This document shows, one piece after another, positions 7,919 to 29,465 of a DNA stretch of 32,394 nucleotides. Positions within the stretch are counted from its first letter, which is position 1, and each line of letters starts with the position of its first letter. The notes under the pieces are model-generated. The model saw only the letters and a list, made by a program, of their open reading frames with translations. It did no database searches and was not told where the DNA came from. This DNA is from an uncultured Lentisphaerota bacterium (GTDB lineage: Bacteria > Verrucomicrobiota > Kiritimatiellia > RFP12 > UBA1067): assembly GCA_900320225.1 (NCBI GenBank), contig ONRL01000020.1:1-32394 (forward strand), given 5' to 3'. The position numbers were made by a program, and so were the translations under genes.

Positions 7919-10900
7919 TCATTGGCGATGATATTCCTGAAGGCTGTAAACGGCTTTCTCTGTCCGATCCTCGGCGAGTCCGGCGACGGCGGCGGCGAAG
8001 CCGGCCAGGGTCGTGGTGACGGGGACGCCGGCCGCGACGGCGCAGGAACGGAGCAGGACGGAGTCCCCCGTCGCCTCGCCGTCTGATTCGGACGTGTTGA
8101 CGACCCAGTCGATCTCGCCCTTGTGGATGAGGTCGATCACGTTTGGCCGCCCACGCGAAATCCTGAACGCCGCCTTCGACTCGACGCCGCTGTTCCACAG
8201 ATACGTGGACGTGCCCAGCGTCGCGTAGATGTTAAAGCCCAGCGACTTGAGTTCCGCCGCGAGTTTCGAGACCTGCGGCTTGTCCTCGTCGCGGACGGAG
8301 AGGAACACGTTGCCGCCTTTCGGCAGGGGGCTTCCGCAGGCGATCTGGCTCTTGCAGTAGGCGCCGAAACGGTCGTAGTCGATTGCCATCACCTCGCCCG
8401 TGGACTTCATCTCGGGCGAAAGCGTGATCTTCGCTCCCGGGAACTTGACGTAGGGGAACACGGCTTCCTTGACGCAGTAGTAGTTGCGAGTTGGTAGTCG
8501 GTCGTCGGCAGCTGGTAGTTTTTCGCCGACCATCGCGAGCGTGCCGAGGTCGGCGAGGGGAATGCCCGTGGCCTTTGAGACGAAGGGCACCGTGCGCGAG
8601 GCGCGGGGGTTGACCTCAATCATCCAGATTTCATCATTCTTCACGGCAAGCTGTAGGTTCATGAGCCCAACGACATGAAGGCGCTTTGCAAAAATCTCGG
8701 TGTAGCGCTTCACCTCGGCAAGCGTCTTCTCGGAAAGGCTGACCGGCGGCGTGATCGCGGCGGCGTCGCCGGAGTGGCAGCCGGCCGCCTCGATATGCTC
8801 GAGGATCGCGCCGATCTGCGTCGTTTCGCCGTCGGAGACGGCATCGACATCCAGTTCAATCGCGTGTTCGAGGAACTTGTCGATGAGGATGGGCTTCCCC
8901 TCCGACGCGGCGACGGCCTCGGCGACGTACGAATCCAGTTCGGACTCCTTGTAGACAATTGCCATGCCGCGTCCCCCAAGGACGAAACTCGGCCGCACGA
9001 GGACGGGATAGCCGATCTCGTTGGCGATGCGCCGCGCATCCTCGATGGAATGGGCAATGCCGCTCGCAGGCTGCTTCATGCCGATCTCCGCGACGAGCGC
9101 GCGGAAGAAGTCGCGGTCTTCGGCGAGGGCGATGTCTTTCGGCGAGGTGCCGATGATCTTGGCCCCGGCCTGCTCAAGCCGCTCGGCGAGATTGAGGGGC
9201 GTCTGGCCGCCGTACTGCACGATCACGCCGTCGCACTGCTCGCGGTCGTAGATTTCCATCACGTCCTCGAATGTCAGCGGCTCGAAGTAGAGTCTGTCCG
9301 AGGTGTCGTAGTCGGTCGAGACGGTCTCGGGGTTGGAGTTGACCATCACCACCTCGTAGCCGCGCTTCTGCAAGGTGAAGGCCGCATGGCAGCAACACCA
9401 GTCGAACTCGATGCCCTGCCCGATGCGGTTGGGCCCGCCGCCCAGCACCATGATCTTGCCAATGTTGCCAATGTTGCCAGTGTTGCCAATGTTACCAGTG
9501 TTGCCAGTTACCACTTGATTATTGGCATTGGCAATTGGCAACATTTCCACATTGGCAACATTCGCCAAAGGCGTATGACCTTCAGGCGAATAGTAGCTAT
9601 AGTAGTACGGCGTCACGGCCTCGAACTCGCCCGCGCACGTATCGACCTCGCCAAACTCCGGACGGATGCCGAGCGAGATCCTTTTCTTCCGCACCGTAAT
9701 CTCATCTTCTCCGATCGCCTCGGCGATCTCCTTGTCGCTGAAGCCAAAGACCTTTGCCTGGCGGAAAAGGGAGGAAAACTCTTCACTAAGATTTATGCCG
9801 CAAAGATCGCAAAGTCCGCAAAGAGATTCTTGACTCTGGGCAGATTTTTCCTTCTTTGCGCGCTTTGCGTTCTTTGCGGCTAGAAAATGTTCTCCCAGAT
9901 ATTTTTTGAACGCCTCGATTTCATCCAGTTCGCGCCTGAACCACGGGTCGTAGGTTTCCGCGTGGTGGTACTTGAGCGGCGCCTCCAGCGAGCGTATGGC
10001 CTTCAGGTACGCCTGCTTGAAGGTGCGGCCGATGGCCATCACCTCGCCGACGGATTTCATTTGCGTGCCGAGCGTCGTGGGGGTGCCGTGGAATTTCTCA
10101 AACGCGAAGCGGGGGATCTTCACGACCACGTAATCCAGCGCGGGCTCGAAGCAGGCAAGCGTCTTGCCCGTGATGTCGTTCGTGATTTCGTCGAGCGTGA
10201 AGCCGACGGCCAGAAGGGCGGCGATCTTCGCGATCGGGAAGCCCGTCGCCTTGGAGGCGAGCGCCGACGAGCGCGAGACGCGCGGGTTCATCTCGATGAT
10301 GATGCGCCGTCCGTCTTTCGGGTTGACGGCCCACTGCACGTTGGAGCCGCCCGTCTCGATGCCGATCTTCTCCAGCACCTTGATGGAGTCGTCGCGCATC
10401 GCCTGGTATTCGCGGTCTGTGAGCGTGAGGATCGGCGCGACGGTGATGGAGTCGCCCGTGTGGACGCCCATCGGGTCCATGTTCTCGATGGAGCAGACGA
10501 TCACGGCGTTGCCGGCCTTGTCGCGCATCACCTCCATCTCGTATTCCTTCCAGCCGATCAGCGACTCCTCCACGAGCACTTCGTGGTTGAGCGACGCCTC
10601 GAGTCCGCCGGTCACGATCCGCGTAAACTCCTCCGCGTCGTGCGCGATGCCGCCGCCGGTGCCGCCGAGCGTGAAGCCAGGCCGCACGATGAGCGGCCAC
10701 GAACCGATCGTCCGCGCGATCGCCTCCGCCTCCGCAAGCGAGTGGGCGCTGCCGGAACGCGGCATGTCGAGTCCGATCTCGCGCATCGCCTCCTTGAAGA
10801 GGTTCCGGTCCTCGGCGCGCGCAATCGCCTCCGCATTCGCGCCGATCAGTTCCACGCGGTAGCGCTTCAGGACGCCGCCCTTGTCCAGCTCCATCGCAAG

Positions 10901-11188
10901 GTTGAGCGCGGTCTGACCGCCCAGCGTCGGGAGAAGGGCGTCGGGGCGTTCGCGGCGGATCACCTCATGGAGGTAGTCCGCCGTCAGCGGCTCGATGTAG
11001 GTTCTGTCGGCGCGGTCGGGATCGGTCATGACCGTCGCGGGGTTGGAATTGACGAGTACGACCTCGTAGCCGAGGTTCTTGAGCGCCTTGACGGCCTGTA
11101 CGCCCGAGTAGTCGAACTCGCATCCCTGCCCGATGACAATCGGACCCGAGCCGATGATCAGGATCTTTCTCAAATCAGTGCGTTTCAT
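7919..11188 (-). CDS. carB: Carbamoyl-phosphate synthase large subunit with three repeat-derived inserts
   Basis: This 1089-residue protein makes carbamoyl phosphate for pyrimidines and arginine, using ammonia channelled from CarA. Both ATP-grasp halves are intact: the first begins [22 protein letters not shown], the second [20 protein letters not shown], with GGQTALNLA and GGQTPLNLA motifs and Glu/Asn metal sites [21 protein letters not shown] and [20 protein letters not shown]. The C-terminal allosteric domain ends SLQEYHRQ. Compared with E. coli CarB (1073 residues), extra segments lie at about residues 437-464 in the oligomerisation domain (ending LCGLCDLCG), 541-578 just before the second half (a GNTGNIG-type tract), and about 889-903. 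The start overlaps the pyrG stop (ATGA), so it is the last gene of glnA-purF-carA-pyrG-carB. None of the inserts touches an active-site motif. Confidence 0.95.
8480..8522. repeat. In-frame repeat of TTGGTAGT type inside carB
   Basis: GTTGCGAGTTGGTAGTCGGT and then CGGCAGCTGGTAGTT make a run of related 10-base units (minus strand AACTACCAG, CGACTACCAACT). One reading frame would give [14 protein letters not shown], a peptide pattern of a dispersed bacterial repeat. carB reads it as [15 protein letters not shown], in the loop between GTLAMVGE and YCVKEAV. Confidence 0.45.
9455..9566. repeat. Nine-base tandem tract (TTGCCAATG) with inverted partner inside carB
   Basis: Units TTGCCAATG/TTGCCAGTG run from 9455 to about 9512. 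Inverted copies (TTGGCATTGGCAATTGGCAAC, then ATTGGCAACAT) follow to 9566, so the whole can fold as a long hairpin. On the minus strand it encodes [17 protein letters not shown] and then a GNTGNIG-like repeat directly before the second ATP-grasp half of CarB. Confidence 0.8.
9797..9880. repeat. Palindromic repeat, family A, in frame in carB
   Basis: The outer arms GCCGCAAAGATCGCAAAG and CGCTTTGCGTTCTTTGCGGC are near-inverse. CarB reads it as [11 protein letters not shown]... ending in LCGLCDLCG. The site lies in the loop between two helices of the CarB oligomerisation domain. Confidence 0.85.
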
Positions 11189-12894
11189 TTTCTTTTCCCT
11201 TTGAGCGCAGCTTTGACGAGGCCGTTGAAGAGCGGATGCGGCGCGGTCGGCCGCGACTTGAACTCGGGATGGAACTGCGAGGCGATGAAGTAGGGGTGGC
11301 CGGGCAGCTCGACGATCTCCACGAGCTTGCCGTCCGGGGAGAGGCCGCTCGCCACAAGCCCCGCCGCCTCGATGGCCTGTTGCGCCTTGGCCCCGTTCGC
11401 AAACTCGTAACGGTGCCGGTGGCGTTCGGAGATCATCGTCTCCACAAAGGCTTTGTGATCTTTGTGTCCTTTGTGGCAATAAAGCTTTTCCGCAAGCGAC
11501 CCCGTCTTGAGCACGCACGGATAGGCGCCGAGGCGCATCGTGCCGCCTTTCTGCGTGATGCCGCGCTGCTCTTCCATGAGGTCGATCACCGGGTGCGCCG
11601 TTTTTTCATCGAATTCAGTGGAGTTGGCGTCCTTCCAGCCGAGTACGTCACGCGCATACTCGATGACCGTGCATTGCATTCCGAGGCAGATGCCGAGGAA
11701 GGGAATCTTCTTTTCCCGCGCATACTTAATCGCCGCGATCTTGCCTTCCACGCCCCGCGAACCGAACCCGCCCGGCACGAGGATGCCATCGACGTCTTTT
11801 AATTTTTTGCCACAAAGGACGCAAACATTTTTCTCTTCGTCTTTCTTCTTTGTGTCCTTTGTGGCTAAAAGATCTTCCGCTTCGATGGGGACCACGTTCA
11901 CCTTGCAGTCGTTCGCCATGCCGGCGTGCTGCAGCGCCTCGTGGATGGATTTGTAGGCGTCGCGGATCGAGATGTACTTGCCGACGAGCGCGATGGTGCA
12001 TTCGCGTTTGGGTTGCGTCGCCTTGCGCACAAGCGAGTCCCAGATGGTGTGTTTGATCGGCCACACGTCGAGCCGCAACTGCCTCAGCACCTGCTCGTCC
12101 AGTCCCTGGTCGCGCAGTTCGCGCGGCACGGCATAGACGGAATCCGTGACGTCCTTCTCCTCGATCACGCACTCGCGTTTTACGTTGCAGAACATGGCAA
12201 GCTTCTTCAGGTGCTCCTCGGGGATCGTCATTTCGGTGCGGCACACGAGGATGTCGGGGATGATGCCGATGTTGCGGAGCATGCCGACGGAATGCTGCGA
12301 CGGCTTCGTCTTGAGCTCGCCCGCCGCCTTGAGGTAGGGGACGAGCGTCAGATGCACGAAGCACGTGTTCTCCTCGCCTTCCTCGAACCTGAACTGGCGC
12401 GCCGCCTCCAGGAAGGGCAGGGATTCGATGTCGCCCGAGACGCCCCCGATCTCGCAGAGAACGATGTCGGGCGCGGGCTCGTCCCCATGCGGTTCGCCCG
12501 CGCTGTGGATCGCCGACTTGATTTCATCGGTGATGTGCGGCACCACCTGCACCGTGCCGCCCAGGTAACCGCCCGCCCGTTCCCGCGCAAGCACGGCGGA
12601 GTAGATGCGCCCGGACGTGTAGTTGCTCGCCTTCGAACAGGTCACGCCCGCGAACCGCTCGTAGTGTCCGAGGTCGAGGTCCGTCTCCGCACCGTCGTCC
12701 GTCACGAACACTTCCCCGTGCTGGTAGGGCGACATTGTGCCGGGATCGACGTTGAGATAGGGGTCGAGCTTCTGCATGAACACCCTGTAGCCGCGGCTCT
12801 TCAGGAGAAGCGCCAGCGACGCGCTCGTGATGCCCTTGCCAAGGCTGGAGACCACTCCGCCGGTGATAAACACGTATTTGACTTGCTTTTTCAT
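11185..12894 (-). CDS. pyrG: CTP synthase (glutamine-hydrolysing) with two repeat-derived inserts
   Basis: This 569-residue enzyme turns UTP into CTP with ATP and glutamine. The synthetase half shows [21 protein letters not shown] at the start, [21 protein letters not shown], and the CTP-feedback region [14 protein letters not shown]. The glutaminase half has the nucleophile C of [19 protein letters not shown] (about residue 402) and the His-Glu pair in [12 protein letters not shown]. coli PyrG has 545 residues; the extra ones lie at about 343-362 (a Lys-rich stretch ending VCVLCGK, in the linker before the glutaminase active site) and about 473-484 (CHKGHKDHK). The start ATG at 12894 follows GGAAACGGGC. 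The stop overlaps carB. Third downstream of glnA in the operon. Confidence 0.95.
11442..11476. repeat. Short palindromic repeat, family A, in pyrG
   Basis: CCACAAAGG at 11442-11450 and CCTTTGTGG at 11468-11476 are perfect inverse arms around CTTTGTGATCTTTGTGT. PyrG reads it as [13 protein letters not shown], a different frame from the other copies. Confidence 0.8.
11809..11865. repeat. Palindromic repeat, family A, in pyrG
   Basis: Arms GCCACAAAGGACGCAAA and CTTTGTGTCCTTTGTGGC. PyrG reads it as [20 protein letters not shown], between the end of the synthetase-glutaminase linker (IEAEDLL) and the strand [10 protein letters not shown]. Confidence 0.85.
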
Positions 12895-12911
12895 GGTTTG
12901 CCCGTTTCCTT

Positions 12912-12973
12912 TAGGCGCAAAGACCGCAAAGACATCATCTATTGCATCTTTGCGCTCTCTGCGTTCTTTGCGG
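12912..12973. repeat. Palindromic repeat, family A, between carA and pyrG and forming the carA end
   Basis: AGGCGCAAAGACCGCAAAG and CTCTGCGTTCTTTGCGGC are inverse arms. On the minus strand, carA runs into the repeat and ends inside it (last residues [11 protein letters not shown]). The rest is the spacer before pyrG. Confidence 0.8.
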
Positions 12974-14138
12974 CTGAAATCATTTCCTTGAAATCCTTGA
13001 AAAGATATTTGCTGTCGTGCGGGCCGGGGCAGGATTCGGGATGGTACTGCACCGAAAACGCCGGAAGCGTCTTGTGGCGCACGCCCTCGATGGAGCCGTC
13101 GTTGAGATTGACATGCGTGACCTCCAGGCACTCGGGAACCGTCGCGGGGTCGACGGCGAAATTGTGGTTCTGGCTCGTGATCTCCACCTGTCCCGTCGCC
13201 AGGTTCTTGACGGGATGGTTGCAGCCGTGATGTCCGAACTTGAGCCGCATCGTCTTCGCCCCGCAGGCGAGCGAAAGCAGCTGGTGCCCGAGGCAGATGC
13301 CCATGATCGGAGCTTTGCCGAGCAGCTTCCGGATGTTCTCGATGGCGTAGATGACGGCGGCGGGGTCGGCCGGGCCGTTGGAAAGGAAGATGCCATCGGG
13401 ATTGAGCGCCAGCACCTCCTCCGCGCTCGTCTTGGCCGGCACGACCGTGACCTTCGCCCACGCCGCAAGTGAGCGGAGGATGTTGCTTTTCACGCCGAAG
13501 TCGTAGCAGACGATGCGGGGAGGATCTTTTTCGCCGCAAAGAACGCAAAGGTCTTTTTTACTCTCTGTGTTCTTTGTGTCCTTTGTAGCTGAAAACTCAT
13601 GCACCTCCCCGCAAGTAACCTTCGCCGCGTAATCCTGTCCGTCCAATCCCACCCATTCACGGGCTTTGGCGATTGCCTCCGACTCGGTCGCAGCCAGCTG
13701 CGACCCTCCCGTGCAAAGATACGCCTTCTGGTTGCCATGTTCACGGAGATGGATCGTCAATGCGCGCGTATCGACGCCGTAGATGCCGGGTACGCCGTTC
13801 TCCTTCAGGTAGTCGTCAAGGCTCTTCTCGCTCCGCCAGTTGCTGGGCGGGGTCAGGTCGCCGATTACGAGTCCGGACAGAAAAAGGGCGCGGCTTTCCA
13901 CGTCCGCGCCATTGATTCCGTAATTTCCGATCTCCGCGGCGGTGAGGGTGACGAACTGCCCGGCGTAGGACGGGTCGGTGAGGATTTCCTGATAGCCGCT
14001 CATGCCGGTGTTGAACACGACCTCGCCGAGCGCATCTTTCGCGGCGCCAAACGCGACGCCGTGGAACACCGTTCCGTCCGCCAGCGCGAGAAACGCCTTT
14101 CTCTCGCGCTCCGCTTTCCATTTGCTTTCGTAATCCAT
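12939..14138 (-). CDS. carA: Carbamoyl-phosphate synthase small (glutaminase) subunit
   Basis: This 399-residue protein frees ammonia from glutamine for CarB. The N-terminal CarA domain begins [18 protein letters not shown] (from residue 14) and includes [21 protein letters not shown]; the class I glutamine amidotransferase domain has nucleophile C282 in [11 protein letters not shown] and H366/E368 in QYHPES. An insert at about residues 184-203 ([20 protein letters not shown]) lies in the linker between the two domains, and the last about ten residues ([11 protein letters not shown]) come from another repeat copy. E. coli CarA has 382. The start ATG shares a base with the purF stop (TGATG). 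The gene sits between purF and pyrG, unusually separated from carB by pyrG. Confidence 0.95.
13533..13590. repeat. Palindromic repeat, family A, in carA
   Basis: Arms GCCGCAAAGAACGCAAAG and CTTTGTGTCCTTTGTAGC. Read in CarA as [20 protein letters not shown], at the junction between the N-terminal domain and the glutaminase domain. Confidence 0.85.
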
Positions 14139-15946
14139 CAATATGACCTTTCGGAATTCTTTTCGAGATAGTTGAGAAGCGCCTTGCGCAACACCTTGTA
14201 ACCTCCGGGCGTGGGATAATCGCCAGTGAAGTACCAGTCGCCAAAGGCGAGCTGGGAGTTGTTTAAGCACTTTCTTAAATTCTCGACCGTCTGATAGACC
14301 ACCACCACTTCCGCCTTTGTGCCGGGGGGCGTGAGGAGGCGTGCGATCTCGGCGCAGTGCTGTTCGTCGGAGAAGCGGGCGTAGAGCGGCGCGAGGGGAT
14401 TCAACGGGCAAGATGCCCGTCCTTCCAGTGCTTCACGCAGTTCCTTCTCCGCGTCCGGGCCGAGGAGATTCACAAGCGCGCGGAATGCCACGAGCTCGCC
14501 GAGGGTGGACATGTCGATCCCGTAGCAGTCGGGATAGCGGATCGGCGGGGCGGACGACACGATCACGATGCGCTTCGGCCCGAGGCGCGAGAGCATCGGG
14601 ATGATTGCGTTCCGCATCGTGTTGCCGCGCACGATCGAGTCGTCCATCACGACGAGCGTGTCCTCCTCGTCGATGAGCCCGTAGGTGACGTCGTAGACGT
14701 GCTTGTAGAACTCGCGGCGGGCGGCGGCGTCTGCGATGAACGTGCGGAACTTCGCGTCCTTCACGGCAATCTCGCCGAATCGGGGAAGGTTCTTGCCACA
14801 AAGATCACAAAGAAAAGGATCTGAATCTTTGTGTCCTTTGTAGCTTAGAACTAAACTGAACAGCCGTTCGAGAAGTCCATAAAAGGCGATGCGGGCCGAG
14901 TTGGGGATGTAGCTGAAGAAGATGCGCTCCATCGGCGCGTGGGCGGCGGCGAGGATCTGCGGCACGAGCGCCGCGCCGAGCGCCTTGCGCTCGCGGTAGA
15001 TGCCGGCGTCGTTCGCGCGCGAGAAGTAGATGCGCTCGAATGCGCAGGGGTGGGGGGATTCTTGGATGTCCGAACGCAGTTCGGACATCAGGACTTCGCC
15101 ATCAGGGGAAATGAGCAGCGCCGCGCCGGGCGGAAGCTCCTTCACGGCCTCCGGCGGCACGTCGAACGCGGCCTGGATCGCGGGGCGTTCGCTGGCCACC
15201 ACGAACACCTCGTCGTCGCTGTAGCAGTAGCCGGGGCGTATGCCGTGCGGGTCGCGCGTCGCGAAGGCCCAGCCGTCGCCCGTCGCCCCGCAGAACGTCC
15301 ATGCGCCGTCGGCGTCCTTCAACGCGCGGGAAAGCGCTGAGGCGAGGGGAGGGACGCGCTCCTGCGCGTCCGTACCCTCAACGGTCGCGCAGGAGCGCGC
15401 CCCTCCCAGCTCGTGCGCGATCAGCTCGCAGATGAGGTAGCCGTCGGCGCGGCTCGTCGGGAACTCGCCCTTGCGGCGGTAGTCCTCGAACAGCTCGCCG
15501 GCGTTCGTGAGGTTGAAGTTTCCGGCGAGGAGCAGCGTGTGGCAGAGTTCGCTCGCCTGGTGGATGAACGGGTGGCAAAACGCCACCTCGTTCTTCCCAA
15601 AGGTGGCGTAGCGCAGGTGCCCGAGGAAGATGCGTTCCGATGATCCGGTGTCGAACAAGGACATGGCGGACTGCTCATGCCGTTTGCCGATTGCGTCCAG
15701 CAGGTCCGCGAGGGCGGTTGACGAGGATGACTTGAACGCCCAGTAGGGCATGTAGCCCGACTCGGGGTGGCTGGAGAGGATCGCCGCGCCCGCGCCGTCC
15801 TGCCCGCGGTTGTGCTGCTTCTCCAGGAGGAGCGAGAGCTTCGTGCCGCCGTAGTCGCTCGACCCGTATTTATTGCGATAATGCTCGCCGTCCTTTTTCA
15901 GGACGACGAGCGCTACCGCACATTCGTGTTTCAGTTCGTCAGTCAT
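14138..15946 (-). CDS. purF: Amidophosphoribosyltransferase, long form with four inserted repeats
   Basis: This 602-residue enzyme starts purine synthesis by adding glutamine nitrogen to PRPP. The N-terminal class II amidotransferase domain begins MTDELKHECAVALVVLKKDG, with C9 the likely nucleophile after removal of eight residues, and shows LEKQHNRGQDGAGAAI and FLGHLRYATFG. The PRPP-binding site is LVVMDDSIVRGNTMRNAI (residues 431-448). It resembles the roughly 620-residue PurF-like proteins of Bacteroidetes more than the 470-500-residue E. coli or Bacillus enzymes. Extra palindrome-coded segments lie at about residues 180-201, 287-295, 368-386 and 508-517. Its start is 18 bases after the glnA stop, and its stop overlaps carA. 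A standard PurF elsewhere in the genome is possible. Confidence 0.88.
   Translation of the reverse strand: MTDELKHECAVALVVLKKDGEHYRNKYGSSDYGGTKLSLLLEKQHNRGQDGAGAAILSSHPESGYMPYWAFKSSSSTALADLLDAIGKRHEQSAMSLFDTGSSERIFLGHLRYATFGKNEVAFCHPFIHQASELCHTLLLAGNFNLTNAGELFEDYRRKGEFPTSRADGYLICELIAHELGGARSCATVEGTDAQERVPPLASALSRALKDADGAWTFCGATGDGWAFATRDPHGIRPGYCYSDDEVFVVASERPAIQAAFDVPPEAVKELPPGAALLISPDGEVLMSELRSDIQESPHPCAFERIYFSRANDAGIYRERKALGAALVPQILAAAHAPMERIFFSYIPNSARIAFYGLLERLFSLVLSYKGHKDSDPFLCDLCGKNLPRFGEIAVKDAKFRTFIADAAARREFYKHVYDVTYGLIDEEDTLVVMDDSIVRGNTMRNAIIPMLSRLGPKRIVIVSSAPPIRYPDCYGIDMSTLGELVAFRALVNLLGPDAEKELREALEGRASCPLNPLAPLYARFSDEQHCAEIARLLTPPGTKAEVVVVYQTVENLRKCLNNSQLAFGDWYFTGDYPTPGGYKVLRKALLNYLEKNSERSY
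14401..14427. repeat. Small palindrome GGGCAAGATGCCC in purF
   Basis: GGGCA and TGCCC pair around AGA, followed by GTCCTTCCAG. PurF reads the reverse strand as EGRASCPLNP; the opposite strand would give TGKMPVLP, a peptide pattern of a dispersed repeat. Confidence 0.5.
14795..14845. repeat. Palindromic repeat, family A, in purF
   Basis: Arms GCCACAAAGATCACAAAG and CTTTGTGTCCTTTGTAGC. Read in PurF as SYKGHKDSDPFLCDLCGKN, in the loop between ERLFSLVL and GEIAVKDAKF. Confidence 0.85.
15065..15089. repeat. Perfect 11-base-arm palindrome in purF
   Basis: GATGTCCGAAC and GTTCGGACATC around GCA. Read in PurF as LMSELRSDIQ, within a variable loop of the amidotransferase domain. A hairpin this exact inside an ordinary coding sequence is unexpected, so it is probably another inserted repeat. 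Confidence 0.65.
15346..15408. repeat. GC-rich palindromic repeat, family B, full copy in purF
   Basis: GGGAGGGACGCGCTCCTGCG, a short loop, then GCGCAGGAGCGCGCCCCTCCC: inverse arms of about 26 bases. PurF reads it as [20 protein letters not shown], a loop insertion after LICELIAHEL. Confidence 0.85.
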
Positions 15947-15964
15947 TCACCAACTTTCAGCTCA

Positions 15965-18067: not shown

Positions 18068-18119
18068 CGTCGTTCTCCTTGTGTCCGATGCGACCGTCGC
18101 ACCCGACGCTGGACATCTA

Positions 18120-18136
18120 AGCAAACATCGTGCCAA
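18120..18136 (-). promoter_or_regulatory. Sigma-54 promoter of glnA
   Basis: Minus strand TTGGCACGATGTTTGCT matches the -24 GG / -12 GC consensus (TGGCACG-N4-TTGC) in every key base. The -12 C is at 18121, predicting a start near 18109 and a leader of about 42 bases to the ATG at 18067. It needs an NtrC-like activator, in keeping with nitrogen control. Confidence 0.85.
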
Positions 18137-18196
18137 CGGCGTGTCAGCCGTATTTCGGGGCATTTGATTCAGAAAATGTAAAGGTCCCGCCGGATG

Positions 18197-18288
18197 CCAT
18201 TCACGCCATGTAAGCATTTACAGAATCCGCCCCGGGAATGGGCGTGCTTGTACACAGAATGGAAGAAATGCCCTCGCGAAGGCCATTC
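18197..18288. promoter_or_regulatory. Shared control region between divergent glnA and glnK
   Basis: Between the two sigma-54 sites lie four copies of GAATGG/CCATTC (18197-18202, 18236-18241, 18257-18262, 18283-18288) and the palindrome TGTAAGCATTTACA at 18209-18222. They are candidates for activator sites serving both genes. The classic NtrC consensus (GCAC-N5-TGGTGC) is not seen. Confidence 0.4.
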
Positions 18289-18295
18289 CGGACCG

Positions 18296-18311
18296 TTGGC
18301 ACGGCTTGTGC
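18296..18311 (+). promoter_or_regulatory. Sigma-54 promoter of glnK-amtB
   Basis: TTGGCACGGCTTGTGC has the invariant GG and GC at the correct spacing. The -12 C is at 18311, predicting a start near 18323 and a leader of about 41 bases to the ATG at 18364. It points away from the glnA promoter. Confidence 0.85.
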
Positions 18312-18363
18312 ATAAGAGCGGCGTCGGCGCGAATGTCGTGCCGAGAACAGAAAGACCATAAAG

Positions 18364-20125: not shown

Positions 20126-20150
20126 GAAGGATCGGTAACGACGTAAACAA

Positions 20151-20188
20151 TGGTCTGGGGGTCGTGGTCTAGCGCGGCCACCCAGACC
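20151..20188 (+). other. Stem-loop between amtB and the barrel gene
   Basis: GGTCTGGG at 20151-20158 pairs with CCCAGACC at 20181-20188, and an inner GTGG/CCAC pair extends it. There is no T-run, so it is likely a partial terminator or an mRNA-stability stem. Confidence 0.5.
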
Positions 20189-20224
20189 GAAGGAAACCCA
20201 AAAGTCAAAAAAAGAGACAGAAAA

Positions 20225-21028
20225 ATGAAAAGGACACTTTTAACCCTGGTAACGACCTCGCTCGTGCTGGTCGCCGAAGCGGCCGAGACGAACGAACTCG
20301 AGAAGACCGAAAGCGGAGGCCTAACCGTCGAGGCGTCCGTCGACGTGCTGAGCGATTACATCTGGCGCGGTACGATCTGTAACGGGAATCCCGTCTGGCA
20401 GCCGTCGGCGACAATCGGCTACGACGCAGGCGACTTCGGCACCGTCTCGGCTAACGTCTGGTCGAGCTTCGACCTGACGCACAAGCGCGGCACGGCGACA
20501 AACAGTCGCAGGTCGTGCGGCGCGCAGGAGATCGACTACACGCTCGCGTACGCCAACTCTCTCGGACCCGTCGGCATCGAGGCCGGACACATCTGGTACA
20601 CGTTCCCGAACAACAACGGATCCAGCGACCAAGATCTGTACGCGACCGTCTCGTACGAGAATGACATCGTGACGCCCTCCGCGTCCGCCTATTGGAACTA
20701 TTCCGACTCGGCGGGAACGGACGTCTCGGCGGTCTACTTCTCGTTTGGGCTTTCGCACGACTTCAAACCGATAGAGGCGCTGACTCTCACGCCCAAGGCC
20801 GAGATCGGCTTCGGCGACCACGCCTACACCGGATCGGCCGGCGGCACGGAACTGACGGACCAGACGCTTGGCTTTTCGGCCAGCTACGCGGTTACCGACT
20901 GGTTCTCGATCGGCGCGCAGATCAACTACACCTGGACGCCCTCGCACACCCTGCGCCACGAAGGCTACATGGGCGAGGGCAAGCACCAGATACTCTGGGG
21001 CGGCGTCAACGCAACGATTTCTTTCTAG
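20225..21028 (+). CDS. Outer-membrane beta-barrel of the Gcw_chp type next to amtB
   Basis: This 267-residue protein has a signal peptide (MKRTLLTLVTTSLVLVAEA) and ends GVNATISF, with a terminal Phe for BAM recognition. The early motif VDVLSDYIWRGTICNGNPVWQPSATI matches the TIGR02001/Gcw_chp group, proteins of unknown function often encoded beside glnK-amtB in Proteobacteria. Amphipathic strands such as FGTVSANVWSSFDL and ISIGAQINYTW-like segments run through it. I chose the ATG at 20225 because the signal peptide starts there; an upstream in-frame start lies inside the stem-loop. It probably belongs to the ammonium operon and may admit small nitrogen compounds through the outer membrane, but no substrate is known. 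Confidence 0.75.
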   Translation: MKRTLLTLVTTSLVLVAEAAETNELEKTESGGLTVEASVDVLSDYIWRGTICNGNPVWQPSATIGYDAGDFGTVSANVWSSFDLTHKRGTATNSRRSCGAQEIDYTLAYANSLGPVGIEAGHIWYTFPNNNGSSDQDLYATVSYENDIVTPSASAYWNYSDSAGTDVSAVYFSFGLSHDFKPIEALTLTPKAEIGFGDHAYTGSAGGTELTDQTLGFSASYAVTDWFSIGAQINYTWTPSHTLRHEGYMGEGKHQILWGGVNATISF

Positions 21029-21042
21029 CCAAAGAAAATCCT

Positions 21043-21087
21043 GGCCTGCGGCGGCGGTTTTCGTATTTGCACCGTCCGCCGCAGGCC
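21043..21087 (+). terminator. Strong hairpin after the glnK-amtB-barrel operon
   Basis: GGCCTGCGGCGG at 21043-21054 pairs perfectly with CCGCCGCAGGCC at 21076-21087, with an inner CGGT/ACCG pair. Only TTAA follows, so termination may be Rho-assisted. It precedes nadE by 26 bases. Confidence 0.65.
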
Positions 21088-21113
21088 TTAACCCCAGTTG
21101 ACAAACCCGAACC

Positions 21114-22931
21114 ATGCAGGGATTCTACAGAATTGCCGCAGCGGCGCCGCGCCTCCACTTGGGCGATCCGGCGGCGAACGCGAAGGAGCTCGTGCGGCTC
21201 GCAAAGGACGCCGCCAAAAACGGCGTCGCCGCGATCGTGTTCCCCGAATTGTGCCTAACGGGCTACACCTGCGGCGACATGTTCTTCCGCGACGAACTCC
21301 TCGCCGCGGCGAACGAGGCGGCAGAGAACTTCGCCGCTAAGACGGCGAACCTGCCGCTCGTCTCCATTGTCGGCCTGCCGGTCGCGGAAGGCCCCGCCAT
21401 TTACAATGCGGCGGCCGTCGTCCACGGCGGTAAGATCGCAGGCATCGTCCGCAAGCGCGCCCTGCCGAACTACGGCGAGTACTACGAGCGCCGACAGTTC
21501 ACGCCGGCGCCAGCCGACGAACCGCTTTCCATCTTCGATGTCGGAGGATTCCGGTTCGGCGTCGAGATCTGCGAGGATCTTTGGACGCCCGTGCCGCCGA
21601 GCTCCCTGATGGCGGAAGGCGGCGTCGACGTGGTGTTCAACCTCTCCGCCAGCACGGATTTCCTCGGCAAGTCGCAGAAGCGCCAGTCGCTCGTCGAGCA
21701 GCAGAGCCTGCGCCTCGGGTGCGCCTACGCGATGGCGTGTGCCGGTTCGGGCGAGTCGAGCTCCGACGCGGTCTACGGCGGATGTCCCGTCATCGCCGTG
21801 GAAGGACGGACCGTAGCCGCGGGCAAATTGTTCAACGGCGCGCCGCAGATCGTCGCGGCGGACGTCGACGTCGCCGCCGCACGGCACCGCAGAAGAAGCA
21901 CGTCGTCCGTCTATTGCTCGCATCCCATTCCCGGCGTCCGCCGGCAGCTGGTCACCCTCGCCGTCCAGCTGCCCGCCGCCACGCCGTCCGTCGTCTCCCG
22001 CTCGCCCTTTCTCGACGAATACGGGGAAGACCGCTGGTGGCGGAAGCTGCTCGACATCCAGGCGACGGGACTCTCGCGGCGGATGGCGAGCGCCGCCATC
22101 GGACGGCTTGTCGTGGGCGTGTCGGGCGGCGCGGACTCCGCCCTCGCGCTCCTCGGCGCTTCGGCGGCGCTCGACAGGCTGGGGCTTGAGCGCGACAATC
22201 TCCTCGCCGTCGTCATGCCGGGTTTCGGCTCGACGAAGACCACGCAGGACCGGGCCGTCGCGCTCGCGGAGGCCGTCGGCGCGTCCGTGCGCGTCGTCGA
22301 CATCCGCGAATCGTGCCGCAAACACCTCTCCGACATCGGACACGTCAAGGGCGTCCACGACATCGCGTACGAGAACGCGCAGGCGCGGGAGCGGACGCAG
22401 GTCCTGATGGACATCGCGAACATGGAGCGCGCGCTCGTCGTCGGCACGGGCGACCTTTCCGAGATCGCGCTCGGGTGGAACACCTACAACGGCGACCACA
22501 TGAGCATGTACCAGATCAACGCCTCCGTGCCGAAGACGATGGTCCTCGCCGCCCTGCGTCTCCTGGCAAACGACTTGGACGGAGCGCTCGGCGACCTGCT
22601 GCGCCGGATATCCTCCGCGCCGATTACGCCCGAACTCCTCCCCGGTGCCGCCGCGAACGACTCGGAGGCGAGGCTCGGGCCGTACGAACTCCACGACTTC
22701 TTCCTCTACCATTATCTGGTCGACGGCGCCTCGGCCGCGACGCTCCGCGAATTGGCGGAGATCGCCTTTGCCGGCGAGTATTCGCGCGACGTAGTCGAAG
22801 AAACACTGACCAAGTTCCTCCGCCGGTTCCGCACCGCGCAGTACAAGCGCAACTGCGTGCCGGACGGCCCGAAGATCACGCTCTCGCTCTCACCCCGCGC
22901 CGACTGGCGCATGCCCAGTGACTTGTCCTGA
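21114..22931 (+). CDS. nadE: Glutamine-dependent NAD+ synthetase
   Basis: This 605-residue protein finishes NAD synthesis by amidating deamido-NAD. An N-terminal nitrilase-type glutaminase has the Glu-Lys-Cys triad: E45 in FPELCLTGYT, K114 in RKRALPNYGEYYERR, and C153 in GVEICEDLW. The C-terminal synthetase has the ATP P-loop VVGVSGGADSAL and NMERALVVGTGDLSEIALGW. Because it contains the nitrilase domain it uses glutamine, not free ammonia, which fits the glutamine theme of the region. It follows a hairpin and has no clear promoter: a TTGACA at 21098-21103 is too close to the ATG to act as a -35. A LysE-type gene follows with its own promoter overlapping the nadE end. Confidence 0.95.
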   Translation: MQGFYRIAAAAPRLHLGDPAANAKELVRLAKDAAKNGVAAIVFPELCLTGYTCGDMFFRDELLAAANEAAENFAAKTANLPLVSIVGLPVAEGPAIYNAAAVVHGGKIAGIVRKRALPNYGEYYERRQFTPAPADEPLSIFDVGGFRFGVEICEDLWTPVPPSSLMAEGGVDVVFNLSASTDFLGKSQKRQSLVEQQSLRLGCAYAMACAGSGESSSDAVYGGCPVIAVEGRTVAAGKLFNGAPQIVAADVDVAAARHRRRSTSSVYCSHPIPGVRRQLVTLAVQLPAATPSVVSRSPFLDEYGEDRWWRKLLDIQATGLSRRMASAAIGRLVVGVSGGADSALALLGASAALDRLGLERDNLLAVVMPGFGSTKTTQDRAVALAEAVGASVRVVDIRESCRKHLSDIGHVKGVHDIAYENAQARERTQVLMDIANMERALVVGTGDLSEIALGWNTYNGDHMSMYQINASVPKTMVLAALRLLANDLDGALGDLLRRISSAPITPELLPGAAANDSEARLGPYELHDFFLYHYLVDGASAATLRELAEIAFAGEYSRDVVEETLTKFLRRFRTAQYKRNCVPDGPKITLSLSPRADWRMPSDLS

Positions 22932-22951
22932 CGCGGAAGGTATGAGATAAT
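22923..22951 (+). promoter_or_regulatory. Promoter for a leaderless lysE-type gene
   Basis: TTGTCC at 22923-22928 and GATAAT at 22946-22951, exactly 17 bases apart. The expected start is about 22958-22959, that is, at the ATG of the exporter gene, so the message has no leader. It overlaps the last codons and stop of nadE. Confidence 0.65.
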
Positions 22952-22958
22952 ATCATAC

Positions 22959-23591
22959 ATGCTCGTTACCTACATCATCGGTTCGCTCGCGCTCATCATC
23001 AAGCCGGGACCTGATTTGACGTGCGTCATCGCCACCGCGCTCGCGGACGGCAAGGCGCGCGCCACGACATTGATGGCCGGCCTCATCCTCGGATGCTGGC
23101 TGTGGATCCTCATTCTCGCCGCAGGCGTCGCGACGGTTTTCACGCACCATCCCGCCGTCATGCTCTCGATCCAGATTCTGGGAACCGCGTACATCGCCTA
23201 CCTCGCATTCGGCGCATTCCGGGAGGCGTGGGCGAGTTTCAAGTCTACTGCGGCAGGCCTTGTTGGTGGCGCGACGGCGCGGGGCTGGCGGCTCGTCGGA
23301 CGCGGCATCCTCATGTCCATGTCGAACCCGCTGACGATCCTCTTCTTCCTCGCGTTTCTGCCGAACTTCACGCACGAGGGCGCATCGCTCCCGCCGTCCG
23401 TCCAAACGCTTCTCCTCGGTACGCTCTTCTGTGTGCTTGTTCCAATCGTCTATCTGCCTTTCATCTTCGCGTGCGATTACTTCCGTACGCGTCTCCTCGG
23501 CTCGCCGAAGGCCACAGCCTGCCTCAAACTCGTCTCCGCGATCATGCTCGCGGCAGTCGTGATGATTCTCGCACGGGCATTGTGGAAGTAG
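22959..23591 (+). CDS. LysE/RhtB-family amino acid exporter
   Basis: This 210-residue membrane protein matches the LysE/RhtB exporters. It opens MLVTYIIGSLALIIKPGPDLTCVI, where KPGPD corresponds to the family TPGPN motif, and has the second motif SMSNPLTILFFLAFLPNF (residues about 122-139). Five to six hydrophobic helices are visible, including WLWILILAAGVATVF and ILGTAYIAYLAFGAF. Members push out amino acids such as lysine, threonine or homoserine lactone; the substrate here cannot be told. It starts at a leaderless ATG right after its promoter, 28 bases after nadE, and is followed by the gltD control region. Confidence 0.85.
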   Translation: MLVTYIIGSLALIIKPGPDLTCVIATALADGKARATTLMAGLILGCWLWILILAAGVATVFTHHPAVMLSIQILGTAYIAYLAFGAFREAWASFKSTAAGLVGGATARGWRLVGRGILMSMSNPLTILFFLAFLPNFTHEGASLPPSVQTLLLGTLFCVLVPIVYLPFIFACDYFRTRLLGSPKATACLKLVSAIMLAAVVMILARALWK

Positions 23592-23625
23592 GTATTTTGT
23601 AAAATCTTTGTTGCCAGAGCGCGAC

Positions 23626-23650
23626 GGCCTTACAATAATTGTAAAAGGCC
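23626..23650. promoter_or_regulatory. Palindrome upstream of gltD (operator or terminator)
   Basis: A perfect 15-base palindrome TTACAATAATTGTAA lies at 23630-23644, flanked by GGCC on both sides so the total forms a hairpin. A related TTTTGTAAAA lies about 35 bases further upstream (23596-23605). It could terminate lysE transcription or bind an activator of the sigma-54 promoter 15 bases downstream. Confidence 0.5.
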
Positions 23651-23664
23651 GGGCGGTTTTGGCG

Positions 23665-23680
23665 TTGGCACGCCTTGTGC
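23665..23680 (+). promoter_or_regulatory. Sigma-54 promoter of gltD-gltB
   Basis: TTGGCACGCCTTGTGC, with GG and GC at -24/-12 spacing, is nearly identical to the glnK promoter. The -12 C at 23680 predicts a start near 23692, only 4 bases before the ATG at 23696. Confidence 0.85.
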
Positions 23681-23695
23681 TATTGTGGCTCTGAT

Positions 23696-25072
23696 ATGAA
23701 CCGCATACACGACATTTACCGCCCGATGGAGGAGCGCAAAGGCGACTGGCACGAGGTCGAACGCGCGCTTTCCGATGAGGAGCTGAAGGAACAGACCTCG
23801 CGCTGCATGAACTGCGGCCAGCCGTTCTGCCATGCCTACGGGTGTCCGCTCGGCAACCTCGTGCCCGACCAGAACCGGGCCGTGGCGCAAGGGAATTTCA
23901 AGCTTGCCTACGAACTCCTCTCGGCGCACTCCGATTTCCCCGAATTCACCTCCCGCATCTGCCCGGCGCTCTGCGAGGCAAGTTGCGTTCACGGCCTCGA
24001 CGAAGAGGCGGTGATGGTGCGGCAGTCCGAGAAGCGCATCATCGAGGCGGCGTTTGCGAACGGCTGGGTCGTGCCGCGTGCGCCGAAAACGGAGAACGGC
24101 AAGTCCGCTGCGGTCGTCGGCGCCGGCCCCGCCGGACTTTCCGCCGCCGTGACCCTGCGCCGGAGGGGATGGAAGGTTACCGTCTATGAAAGGCGCTCCA
24201 ACATCGGCGGCCTCCTCAGGTACGGCATTCCCTGCTTCAAGCTCGAGAAGACCCTGATCGACCGCCGTCGCAAGATTCTCGAGGCCATGGGTATCCGTTT
24301 CGTGACGGATGTCGAAGTCGGGCGCGACGTCGCGGCCGATTGGCTCGCGAAAATGAACGACGCGGTCGTGATCGCCATCGGTACGCCCGCCGCCAGGGAC
24401 TTGAAGATCCCGGGGCGCGAACTGGGCGGCATCCATCTGGCGCTTGAGCTCCTTGAAGGGCAGAACCGCTTCCTGACGGGCGAGATTGCGGCCGCGCCAA
24501 TCAATGCCAAGGGAAAGCATGTGTTGGTGATTGGCGGCGGCGACACCGGCAGCGACTGCGTGGGCACGTCCATCCGTCAGGGCGCGGCGTCCGTCACGCA
24601 GATCGAAATCATGCCCAAGCCGCCGGATACGCGCGATTCCTCCACGCCCTGGCCGTTGTGGCCGTATATGCTCCGTACGAGTTCCAGCCACAAGGAGGGA
24701 TGCGAAAGGCGGTGGAACCTGAATTCGCTGCGGTTCCTCCCGGGAGGGTCGCGCTCCTGCGCGACCGAACGTGTCGGCGGCGTCGAGGTGGAAACGGTGG
24801 AATGGGAGTTCTCGCCGGAAGGGCGCCCGGTGAAGTTCCACGCAGTGGCGGGTACGAAGGAGATCATCAAGGCCGACCTCGTATTCCTGGCCATGGGCTT
24901 TACGGGCGTCCAGCCGGACAACCCGATCATCGCGCAGCTGGGGCTTTCCCAGACACCGCGCACGGCGCTCGTCCCCGACCCCGCACGCAACATCTACTGC
25001 GTCGGCGATTGCGCGTCGGGGGCGTCGCTTGTCGTCCGCGCCCTCGCCAGCGGCAAGAACCTGAATCTTTAA
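23696..25072 (+). CDS. gltD: Glutamate synthase small subunit
   Basis: This 458-residue flavoprotein passes electrons from NAD(P)H to GltB for making glutamate. It starts MNRIHDIYRPMEERKGDW, then the iron-sulfur Cys motifs RCMNCGQPFCHAYGCPLGN and CPALCEASCVHG. The FAD fold VVGAGPAGLSAAVTLRRRG and the NADPH fold VIGGGDTGSDCVGTSIRQG follow. It ends IYCVGDCASGASLVVRALASGKNLNL. A short insert (PGGSRSCATER) near residue 352 derives from a GC-rich palindrome and is read through in frame. The ATG at 23696 lies 4 bases after the predicted sigma-54 start, so translation is almost leaderless. gltB follows after 24 bases. Confidence 0.95.
   Translation: MNRIHDIYRPMEERKGDWHEVERALSDEELKEQTSRCMNCGQPFCHAYGCPLGNLVPDQNRAVAQGNFKLAYELLSAHSDFPEFTSRICPALCEASCVHGLDEEAVMVRQSEKRIIEAAFANGWVVPRAPKTENGKSAAVVGAGPAGLSAAVTLRRRGWKVTVYERRSNIGGLLRYGIPCFKLEKTLIDRRRKILEAMGIRFVTDVEVGRDVAADWLAKMNDAVVIAIGTPAARDLKIPGRELGGIHLALELLEGQNRFLTGEIAAAPINAKGKHVLVIGGGDTGSDCVGTSIRQGAASVTQIEIMPKPPDTRDSSTPWPLWPYMLRTSSSHKEGCERRWNLNSLRFLPGGSRSCATERVGGVEVETVEWEFSPEGRPVKFHAVAGTKEIIKADLVFLAMGFTGVQPDNPIIAQLGLSQTPRTALVPDPARNIYCVGDCASGASLVVRALASGKNLNL
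24741..24767. repeat. GC-rich palindromic repeat, family B, in gltD
   Basis: GGGTCGCGC and GCGCGACC pair around TCCT. GltD reads it as GGSRSCATER, between LNSLRFLP and VGGVEVETVEW, a surface loop. Confidence 0.75.
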
Positions 25073-25096
25073 CGTTCAAGCAAAAGCAAATACCAC

Positions 25097-26479
25097 ATGA
25101 ACAGCAAATACGTCCAGCAATCTGATCGACAGCAAGGCCCGCAGGGATTGTACAGAAGCGAATTCGAGCATGACAACTGCGGCGTGGGCATGGTGGCCAA
25201 CCTCTCCGGAGAAGCCTCCCACGAAATCGTCGTGAACGGCGTGACGATCCTCAAGCGCCTTCTGCACCGCGGCGCCACCGGCAACGATCCCGAGACCGGC
25301 GACGGCGCCGGGTTGCTGCTCAAGATCCCGCACGCATTCTTCAGGAAGGCTTTGGCCGCAAAGAACGCAAAGACGAAAGATGATTTCGGCGTCGCGATGA
25401 TATTCGGAGGGGAGGGCGAAGAGAAGGCGATTGAGGGAGTCGTCAAGTCTGAAGGCTGCGACGTGCTCTGCTGGCGTGACGTGCCGATCGACCCAGATGC
25501 CATCGGCAAAGATGCACGAAAAGTCATGCCGCGAATCAGGCAGTTGTTTATAGCCGCAAAGAACGCAGAGGACGCAAAGAAGAATGGTTCTTCTCTTTGT
25601 GAGCTTTGCGGCAAGGATATTTCATCGTTCGAGCGGAGGCTCTACATCATCCGCCGGCAGATCGAGAAGGCGACCACGAAGACCTACATCTGCTCCTGCT
25701 CGTCGAAGACGATCGTCTACAAGGGGCTCCTGCTCGCCACCCAGATCGAAAGGTTCTACCCCGACCTCTCCGATCCGGATTTCGTTTCGCCTTTCGCGAT
25801 CGTCCACCAGCGCTATTCCACGAACACGTTCCCGTCCTGGGAACTCGCGCATCCGTTCCGCGCCATCGCCCACAACGGCGAGATCAACGCGCTGAAGGGC
25901 AACCTCAACGCCCTTGCCGCGCGCGAAGGCTCGCTCGTCTCGCCGCTGTTCGGCGACGAGCTGAAGAAGCTGCTGCCGGTCGCCCACGGCGGACAATCCG
26001 ACTCGGCTTCGTTGGACAACGTGTTCGAGCTGCTCGTCGCGGCCGGACGCGATGCGCCGCACGCGATGATGATGCTCATCCCGCAGGCGTGGGGCGCGAA
26101 ATACCATGTGGGCCACGACGTGCGCGCGTTCTACGAATACCACTCCGCCCTGATGGAGCCGTGGGACGGCCCCGCTGCCGTCTGCTTTACCGACGGCACG
26201 GGCCTGGGCGCGGCACTGGACCGCAACGGACTGCGCCCTGCCCGGTGGACGCTCACGAAGTCGGGGCTTTTCGTGCTCGCCTCCGAAACCGGCGTTCTCG
26301 ACATCGCCCCCGAGGACGTCGAACGCCACGGGCGCCTCCGCCCCGGCTCGCTGCTCTGGCTCGACCTCGTCAACCACCGGTTGATGGAGAACACGGAGCT
26401 CAAGACCTACTACGCCCGCCGGAAACCCTATCGCCGCTGGGTGAAGGAGAACCACATCCCCGTCACCGGGGACGCTTGA
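25097..26479 (+). CDS. gltB: Glutamate synthase large subunit, N-terminal part (frame broken)
   Basis: This 460-codon frame carries the class II glutaminase domain of GltB. It begins MNSKYVQQSDRQQGPQGLYR and has the nucleophile C28 in EHDNCGVGMVANLSG. Further motifs are HQRYSTNTFPSWELAHPFR, AHNGEINALKGN and DRNGLRPARW. The enzyme turns glutamine and 2-oxoglutarate into two glutamates. Two palindrome inserts are read through (AAKNAKTKDD near residue 87 and AAKNAEDAKK...LCELCGK near 153-172). The frame stops at 26477-26479 just after NHIPVTGDA, and the next frame resumes with TLEDIELIVRPMAETG. One extra G in the run at 26468-26471 would explain it, so it is either a sequencing error or a recent mutation. 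It follows gltD in one operon. Confidence 0.9.
   Translation: MNSKYVQQSDRQQGPQGLYRSEFEHDNCGVGMVANLSGEASHEIVVNGVTILKRLLHRGATGNDPETGDGAGLLLKIPHAFFRKALAAKNAKTKDDFGVAMIFGGEGEEKAIEGVVKSEGCDVLCWRDVPIDPDAIGKDARKVMPRIRQLFIAAKNAEDAKKNGSSLCELCGKDISSFERRLYIIRRQIEKATTKTYICSCSSKTIVYKGLLLATQIERFYPDLSDPDFVSPFAIVHQRYSTNTFPSWELAHPFRAIAHNGEINALKGNLNALAAREGSLVSPLFGDELKKLLPVAHGGQSDSASLDNVFELLVAAGRDAPHAMMMLIPQAWGAKYHVGHDVRAFYEYHSALMEPWDGPAAVCFTDGTGLGAALDRNGLRPARWTLTKSGLFVLASETGVLDIAPEDVERHGRLRPGSLLWLDLVNHRLMENTELKTYYARRKPYRRWVKENHIPVTGDA
25354..25382. repeat. Half copy of repeat family A in gltB
   Basis: GGCCGCAAAGAACGCAAAG is the left arm of the family with no right arm. GltB reads it as AAKNAKTKDD. It looks like a decayed or partial insertion. 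Confidence 0.6.
25553..25612. repeat. Palindromic repeat, family A, in gltB
   Basis: GCCGCAAAGAACGCAGAGG pairs with CTCTTTGTGAGCTTTGCGGC. Read in GltB as AAKNAEDAKKNGSSLCELCGK, in a loop of the glutaminase domain before the strand FERRLYIIRR. Confidence 0.85.
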
Positions 26480-26504
26480 GGACATCGAGCTCATCGTCCG
26501 CCCG

Positions 26505-29461
<2,957 letters not shown>

Positions 29462-29465
<4 letters not shown>

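Follow-up and report, generated by a model that had tools for sequence, protein, structure and literature searches.

In-frame palindromic repeats at recurrent loops of core enzymes in a Kiritimatiellia genome and its relatives

Short palindromic repeats inside coding genes have been known since they were found in Rickettsia, and how they enter and leave genes is an open question. Cyanobacteria have heptamers of the short tandemly repeated repetitive (STRR) kind, which occur, among other places, in RNase P RNA and in the stems of tRNA-Leu introns. We take the O. terrae of the repeat literature to be Opitutus terrae, a verrucomicrobium. In the available parts of the papers cited here, repetitive extragenic palindromic (REP) sequences are reported inside open reading frames (ORFs), O. 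terrae having most of those with GTAG, and the recB genes of X. campestris and X. oryzae contain unlike REPs at about the same site (PMC3733652); Wolbachia palindromic elements (WPE) and eRPE-4 share gene regions as insertion places (PMC3767692); palindromic amphipathic repeat coding elements (PARCEL) are coding palindromic repeats present across distant clades (PMC2996958); heptamer repeats, of GGGAATC in Xanthomonas and of GGGGA(C/T)T in Nostoc, are mainly intergenic (PMC4692102); and at microdiversity loci of E. coli and other organisms short, different segments occur at one locus, often in genes, for which replacement or fragile sites have been invoked (PMC2884548). Here we describe a 32,394-nt stretch of DNA (the window) that forms contig C170 of the 5.21-Mb draft genome, in 351 contigs, of an uncultured member of the Kiritimatiellia, in which copies of a short palindrome, family A, lie in frame within carB, pyrG, carA, a purF-like gene and gltB.

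We give a probability of about 0.6 to the reading that family A and other palindromic families (14 by the rules used, some perhaps related) have repeatedly come to lie in frame in fixed permissive loops of core enzymes in this Kiritimatiellia lineage. The loops concerned are above all those of CarA, CarB, PyrG, the PurF-like protein and GltB. The observations behind the reading are the preserved frame, the shortness of the loops in several relatives, the finding of unlike families at a single site when near species are compared, the enrichment of hairpins and the likeness of families within a genome.

Architecture and reading of family A

The family A unit, CTTTGYGNN, recurs at a spacing of 9 nt in 73 cases, each of the other spacings from 7 to 14 nt occurring at most three times. 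Three units make up 35 of 53 arms, two units 17 and four units one; on the outer side of the last unit the sequence continues as GC(T or A)AAAA, in which the G is present in 96% of the arms and the C in 98%, followed by A in 75–86%. In the two-armed copies caught by the pattern (n = 10), an arm stands opposite its own complement across 10–40 nt. The one-arm pattern CTTTGYGNNCTTTGYGGC gave 45 matches in the host genome, compared with one for the reversed pattern, and ten of the 45 fall in the window, which is 0.6% of the genome (binomial p ~2e-13, a descriptive value because the window was picked). The matches merge into 41 copies, 31 of them outside the window, and copies also occur in relatives, which bears out the claim of a first-pass annotation of this DNA that one palindromic family is involved. 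All of the copies that it listed are present in the sequence at the places given, and nine of the ten merged window copies do keep the frame inside carB, pyrG, carA, the purF-like gene and gltB, as it had proposed. The tenth, which it had placed between genes (12912–12973), is not purely intergenic but runs over the end of carA (Table 1). The copy at 11442–11476, described as a hairpin, belongs to family A but is essentially one arm, and the half copy at 25354–25382 is indeed one arm alone.

Among exact units in six ORFs, 15 of the 16 in right arms encode LCx, the remaining one giving AFV at the PyrG site that has a single arm. For units in left arms the reading is KN/TK-like in seven copies and HK in two (PyrG site 2 and the purF-like gene), and the third reading frame is not used by family A units in these ORFs. 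Two further exact left units lie outside the elements, at residue 542 of the PurF-like protein and residue 300 of the second GltB ORF. Because a unit equals three codons, arms may add or drop units with the frame intact; to judge from the sequence, the 9-nt unit may have let arms grow or shrink without a frame break. An mRNA hairpin under selection was considered and rejected: by eye, with no count made, the arms mix CAC and CGC, which gives some A–C pairs in the mRNA sense in carA and pyrG and G–U pairs in gltB. A comparison with Rfam gave no match at gathering score in the window, and six family A arm strings had no occurrence in print within the literature searched. Family A is a dispersed, probably mobile or mobilisable short palindrome, for which no gene of its own was found and which, across many phyla, is mainly intergenic.

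Insert sites in relatives

PyrG and GltB were each searched in 40 relatives and the neighbourhoods of 20 were taken. The orthologue loop readings at 14 loop sites number 232; four readings of at least 70 residues were dropped as mis-anchored. A loop was counted as carrying an insert when it exceeded the shortest loop at its site by at least 8 residues (n = 133). Where they were read, the loops are short in the order-level relatives G024, G025, G027, G029, G030, G031, G034 and G038 and in the same-genus genome G002, and the order-level relatives G026, G028, G035, G037 and G039 themselves have inserts. In G002, a genome of 2.7 Mb, the loops are at or near the minimum at 12 of 12 sites read, unlike those of many congeners. 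This comparison of orthologues with and without inserts, which the first-pass annotation had suggested, also revealed other repeat families at the same loops, which that annotation had missed.

Tested against dinucleotide shuffles, 69 of the 133 inserts form hairpins at p ≤ 0.01 and 82 at 0.05, compared with 10 and 19 of 133 controls, which were segments of equal length taken 300–450 nt away in the same loci. A 13-mer common to an insert at another site was found in 76 of the 133 inserts, compared with 4.3 in shuffles and 6 of 133 controls; 13- and 14-mers were used instead of 11-mers because the 11-mer test had a high chance level (46/133). The median GC content is 0.53 for inserts and 0.64 for controls.

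Sites were placed by alignment to the chain sequences of solved structures alone. The PyrG inserts and those at GltB site 3 lie opposite gaps in solved homologues, which, with the short loops in several relatives, supports the earlier proposal that the copies occupy linker or loop positions of the protein family. That proposal does not extend to every site: opposite the CarA insert, E. coli CarA has a linker about as long and no gap, the alignment at GltB site 5 (28647–28713) leaves no net gap in the solved homologue, and the alignment with E. coli CarB is ambiguous at the CarB site. Family A segments were not seen in the solved homologues compared, as they might have been if distant phyla carried the same segments at the same places. 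We infer that copies arise through insertion or copying that is blind to frame and that selection would retain solely the in-frame hits where the peptide is tolerated; a loop once filled would stay open to later replacement.

Exchange of families at one loop

The 232 readings comprise 92 that fall into the 14 families, 83 that are empty or nearly so, 53 unassigned and the four dropped. Six families occur at PyrG site 1 and six at GltB site 3, and five each at the CarA site and GltB site 5. Changes were counted on a tree of 34 genomes built from 2412 columns of four proteins, with insert columns largely removed by a fill rule and with 14 starred and 6 open forks. When empty is treated as a state, the minimum number of changes (in brackets, for filled loops alone) is 9 (7) at PyrG1, 8 (6) at GltB3, 7 (6) at GltB5, 7 (5) at PyrG2, 6 (4) at CarA, 5 (4) at PurF2, 4 (2) at PurF1, 4 (1) at GltB4 and 2 (1) at GltB2.

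The clearest swap is at PyrG1 of G003 and G004, which hold a GGGAGGG-type and an AGCACC-type palindrome of 26 and 28 residues. The entire segment of about 80 nt is unlike, the flanking 100 nt hold three differences per side, and the next 100 nt hold five and none. The genomes G009, G011 and G013 likewise have different families at PyrG1, CarA, GltB3 and GltB5. Family membership tends to agree among the sites of a genome: 60 of 242 such site pairs are of the same family, compared with 25 in within-site permutations (0/2000), and 32 of 206 compared with 18 (3/2000) when the host genome is left out. As an isolated observation, CarA of G011 (locus L183) has a near-perfect 12-nt tandem repeat, with the IVCY codons twice, beside a GTGGAA/TTCCAC-type insert; the duplication is a possible trace of an insertion event.

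A tentative scheme for the exchange, to which we attach no great likelihood, is that the palindrome in a loop would form a hairpin that is cut by an SbcCD-like hairpin nuclease, the break being healed by capture of another dispersed palindrome, whether of a related kind or an unrelated one; in needed genes, in-frame repairs alone would survive. If so, the loop would renew its own content and act as a standing exchange site, filled by the family active in the genome.

The swaps might instead stem from homologous recombination between species whose alleles, for the gene or for some short tract, differ, and not from events at the insert, an explanation that we consider unlikely. It draws support from the single-nucleotide polymorphisms (SNPs) per 100 on the two sides of the insert, which number 7 and 10 for G009/G013 at PyrG1, 10 and 11 for G009/G011 at CarA, 10 and 10 for G011/G013 at GltB3 and 28 and 9 for G011/G013 at GltB5. 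By contrast, G003/G004 at PyrG1 has 3 and 3 beside the insert and 0–7 farther out, save in one interval (14) at the next loop, and G009/G011 at PyrG1 has 5 and 6 beside the insert and 1–9 within 900 nt to the left and 1200 nt to the right. Moreover, three pairs with the same family also show 7–12 SNPs on the right side, so the rise beside the loops is not special to swaps. Since flank divergence is raised in some swaps, short-tract recombination nevertheless keeps a share of the probability.

Genes that receive inserts

Within the host genome, copies were located (by a two-unit rule, with genes called by a simple codon-based caller) in 3-kb loci around all 45 matches and in about 0.85 Mb besides the window, regions that are partly chosen by the matches and therefore non-random. 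None of the 31 family A copies outside the window lies in a gene and all 31 are intergenic, which differs from the window (Fisher p 3e-8), so the intragenic copies are a trait of these genes and not of the family. A 15-nt family A fragment, below the two-unit rule, lies inside a 141-residue ORF of locus L283. A scan of the sampled 0.89 Mb for hairpin-forming segments of low coding score and <56% GC in genes of at least 150 residues found seven in 5 of 22 window genes, compared with five in 3 of 546 others (p 3e-6). Of 607 genes that encode 100 residues or more, 58 contain an internal 14-mer that recurs at three or more intergenic places; judging from the list of these genes, most carry the GC-rich family B (GGGAGGG...GCGCTCCTGCGC), which is genome-wide. 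Elsewhere in the host genome (contig C160), a 1118-codon gene at 707–4060 of locus L249 holds, in frame, an insert of family C together with a palindrome of the GGGCATCTTGCCC type.

Indels of at least 8 residues per 1000 aligned residues were counted between the host genome and same-genus and same-family orthologues (numbers of orthologues in brackets). The rates are 6.1 for the PurF-like protein (9), 5.2 for CarA (13), 3.9 for the second GltB ORF (16), 2.5 for PyrG (18) and 2.3 for CarB (4); 2.7 for an isocitrate dehydrogenase-like protein (3), 0.9 for LeuRS (21) and 0.8 for the GltD-like protein (3); and 0 for type III glutamine synthetase GlnA (6), AmtB (1) and GuaA (18). Two general accounts of this choice of genes were set aside. 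That all glutamine amidotransferases are targets does not fit GuaA, and by the two-unit rule no other intragenic family A copy was found in the host genome. Chromosomal neighbourhood as the cause is weakened by GlnA, whose gene adjoins the purF-like gene, and by AmtB, both free of such indels in a test that had orthologues for these two and none for FeoB, NadE, LysE and an M42 peptidase; it is weakened too by G007 and G011, in which GltB has inserts though GltB and PyrG are on separate contigs.

Domestication of the inserts, in which the loops would do a job (for example, a regulatory one in glutamine amidotransferases, through disorder or through CxxC) and something would be kept there by selection, seems quite unlikely to us. 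The concentration in amidotransferases, the excess of AT-rich hairpin inserts in window genes and the reuse of the same sites in many species are consistent with such a role. However, two near species can carry peptides of no kinship at a given site, G002 does with loops at or near the minimum, and the amidotransferase GuaA lacks indels of at least 8 residues, whereas LeuRS, which is not an amidotransferase, has inserts: repeat-like ones of the AGCACC type in G004 and one of 29 residues in G016. The LeuRS inserts indicate that the habit is not limited to amidotransferases.

Occurrence beyond the lineage

The one-arm pattern occurs in 49 of 288 genomes of the phylum, the host genome included. 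A two-arm scan of named genomes gave at least 118 loci, of which 111 were assigned by title to at least 17 named phyla (lower bounds, not frequencies), and the family is therefore not peculiar to genomes of this kind. Among the matches listed, Bacteroidota are foremost (61 loci) and archaea account for 5 of 118; individual draft genomes behind these cross-phylum loci may be mis-binned. The listed matches hold 124 copies, of which 15 are contained in ORFs 120 or more residues long and 15 more overlap them partly, some of the ORFs being doubtful; clear intragenic copies among them are those in a glycosyltransferase gene of RGIG6720 (L033) and in a gene for a pyrroloquinoline quinone (PQQ) enzyme of an Acidobacteria record (L048). 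Pfam gave no match for five of the nine ORFs scanned and none for L075 either. A further clear case is the family A copy in frame in mfd of a Burkholderiales record (L112, 1655–5137).

It is highly doubtful that family A consists of REP elements moved by a Y1 transposase of the REP-associated tyrosine transposase (RAYT) type, even though the copies are short, multi-copy, mostly intergenic palindromes and three Y1_Tnp matches occur in the host genome (the best with E 2e-7). The tags expected at the outer end of the arms are nearly absent, with GTAG/CTAC in 2 and CGTC/GACG in 0 of 53 arms. Over the 288 genomes, scored for presence at the genome level, no clear association is apparent with Y1_Tnp, which is found in 40 of 49 family A-positive and 173 of 239 negative genomes (p 0.21); nine genomes with family A have no match at the threshold used.

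Features of the window

The coordinates of the insert-bearing genes and of the repeats are given in Table 1. These enzyme families are generally regarded as essential. The plus strand also encodes FeoB, an ammonium transporter (AmtB), NAD synthase, a LysE-type translocator and a GltD-like protein, besides gltB, and a type III glutamine synthetase gene lies between the purF-like gene and the ammonium transporter gene. In NCBIfam, PyrG, CarA, CarB and the second GltB ORF all score above their own cut-offs, and the first GltB ORF is a partial match (429 bits). The gene that had been called purF is no more than purF-like, as its sole NCBIfam match, TIGR01134, scores 127 bits, under the cut-off of 350; a GATase_6 match on contig C132 of the host genome bears on the question of the main PurF gene.

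Table 1. Insert-bearing genes and repeat elements of the window
Feature	Position	Strand	Remark
carB	7919-11188	-	
pyrG	11185-12894	-	
carA	12939-14138	-	
purF-like gene	14138-15946	-	carries several inserts
gltB first ORF	25097-26479	+	
gltB second ORF	26505-29465	+	
Family C (TTGCCAATG units), in frame, joint of CarB halves	9447..9562	-	
Family A palindrome in carB	9797..9880	-	reads ...LCGLCDLCG; G009 also has family A at that site
Family A single arm (three units) at second pyrG site	11442..11477	-	units 11451-11477; 4 residues there in G002 and G020
Family A palindrome, first pyrG site	11804..11870	-	22-residue reading
Family A palindrome over carA end	12912..12973	-	encodes last CarA residues and stop
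Family A palindrome in carA	13533..13590	-	21-residue reading
Family A palindrome in purF-like gene	14795..14845	-	reads YKGHKDSDPFLCDLCGK
Family B (GGGAGGG...CGCGCTCCTGCGCG) palindrome, in frame, purF-like gene	15347..15407	-	
Family A, left arm alone, gltB first ORF	25355..25382	+	reads LAAKNAKTKDD
Family A palindrome, gltB first ORF	25553..25612	+	reads AAKNAEDAKKNGSSLCELCGK
Family A palindrome, gltB second ORF	26924..26987	+	22-residue reading
Family A palindrome, left arm degenerate, gltB second ORF (site 5)	28647..28713	+	23-residue reading
Family B element, in frame, gltB	28853..28881	+	reads GGTRSCAS

Other repeats were also observed. The isocitrate dehydrogenase-like gene has three tandem family B units in frame at 29999–30104, and a GGGGAAT-type heptamer repeat (CCCCATT on the other strand) lies at 27602–27635 inside gltB, inverted with respect to a copy at 6639–6672. 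The gltB gene is split, the first ORF stopping at a TGA at 26477–26479 and the second beginning at ATG 26505 in a different frame (region 26420–26560), and in many relatives it is a single open frame of about 1500 codons; the split may be a sequencing error or a real frameshift.

Weighing the evidence

That a mis-binned contig or an assembly artefact sets the window apart from the rest of the genome is extremely unlikely: the draft state of the assembly, the frame change that splits gltB and the difference between GuaA (99% identical to that of G013) and PyrG (~84%) would fit it, but a 9.2-kb stretch of the window (15900–25069, with carA–carB–pyrG outside) and a 10.3-kb control (contig C220) have overlapping DNA identities to 18 relatives (pieces >500 nt, window and control: 76–93% and 87–89% for G005, 81–89% and 65–91% for G011, 71–89% and 65–92% for G013, the low ends being probable paralogues), and the same sites have inserts in many separate assemblies.

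Several points weigh against repeated in-frame occupation of fixed loops by distinct palindromic families. At p ≤ 0.01, 64 of the 133 inserts are not hairpins, and the 53 of 232 unassigned readings fit no family. The family rules are motif rules written after the inserts had been seen, and the units of families A and D are alike (CTTTGTG and CTCTGTG), so that by their sequence these two may be related. In four of six swapped pairs the flanking 100 nt are more diverged (7–28 SNPs) than most of the rest, and the likeness of families within a genome can come partly from shared ancestry. The relatives are draft genomes, no mobilising enzyme was found, with Y1_Tnp showing the distribution given above, and the reading gives no reason for the choice of these genes.

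Because the same loops hold different repeats in species a few percent apart, and in solved enzyme families, gain, exchange and loss lend themselves to tracing along a tree and to tests in a laboratory strain. Loop inserts in proteins from metagenomes can be repeats and not new domains; the inserts are also a source of protein linkers, and the bias towards amidotransferase genes is testable.

Comparison with known systems

The Rickettsia palindromic elements (RPE), named as a precedent by the first-pass annotation, are rightly so named, and the reading as selfish elements is supported. Like RPE and WPE, the repeats are palindromic, of several families and multi-copy, and lie in frame within real enzyme genes as well as between genes. 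They differ in the tandem 9-nt units of family A, in its presence in at least 17 named phyla, in the change of family that a single site shows between near species and in the host, which belongs to the Kiritimatiellia, whereas RPE are found in Rickettsiales; the two are set beside each other by description, not by sequence. PARCEL are likewise coding palindromic repeats but, in the available part of the report, form tandem arrays of a 25-residue motif in ORFs without assigned function (PMC2996958), whereas here single inserts, of at most 58 residues between anchors and with a 9-nt period in family A, lie in conserved enzymes. The heptamers of the STRR and GGGAATC type, as described in the part available (PMC4692102), are tandem short dispersed units, and families S, E and F here look like such heptamers; family A differs in its period of 9 and in arms that stand face to face. 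The segments of microdiversity loci are, in the available text, not described as palindromic repeat families in fixed loops (PMC2884548).

The first-pass annotation had known of no described equivalent for this kind of genome, a statement overtaken by the intragenic GTAG REPs of O. terrae. GTAG/CGTC REPs share with family A a place inside ORFs and, on a small scale, the reuse of a site, as in recB (available part of PMC3733652); family A lacks the tag in 51 of 53 arms, is a longer element and shows no clear RAYT association, and in the present case it is amidotransferases that are targeted, with sites reused more extensively. Among the matches listed in the literature searched, nothing concerned intragenic or in-frame palindromes of Kiritimatiellota, and same-site intragenic REPs appeared only in PMC3733652. 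Palindromes in coding genes, as in Rickettsia, and intragenic REPs are thus already known, and by analogy family A would work like both. The novelty lies in a rapid exchange by which fixed loops, mainly in amidotransferase genes, come to hold other palindromes; its scale, the number of families and the targets set this case apart.

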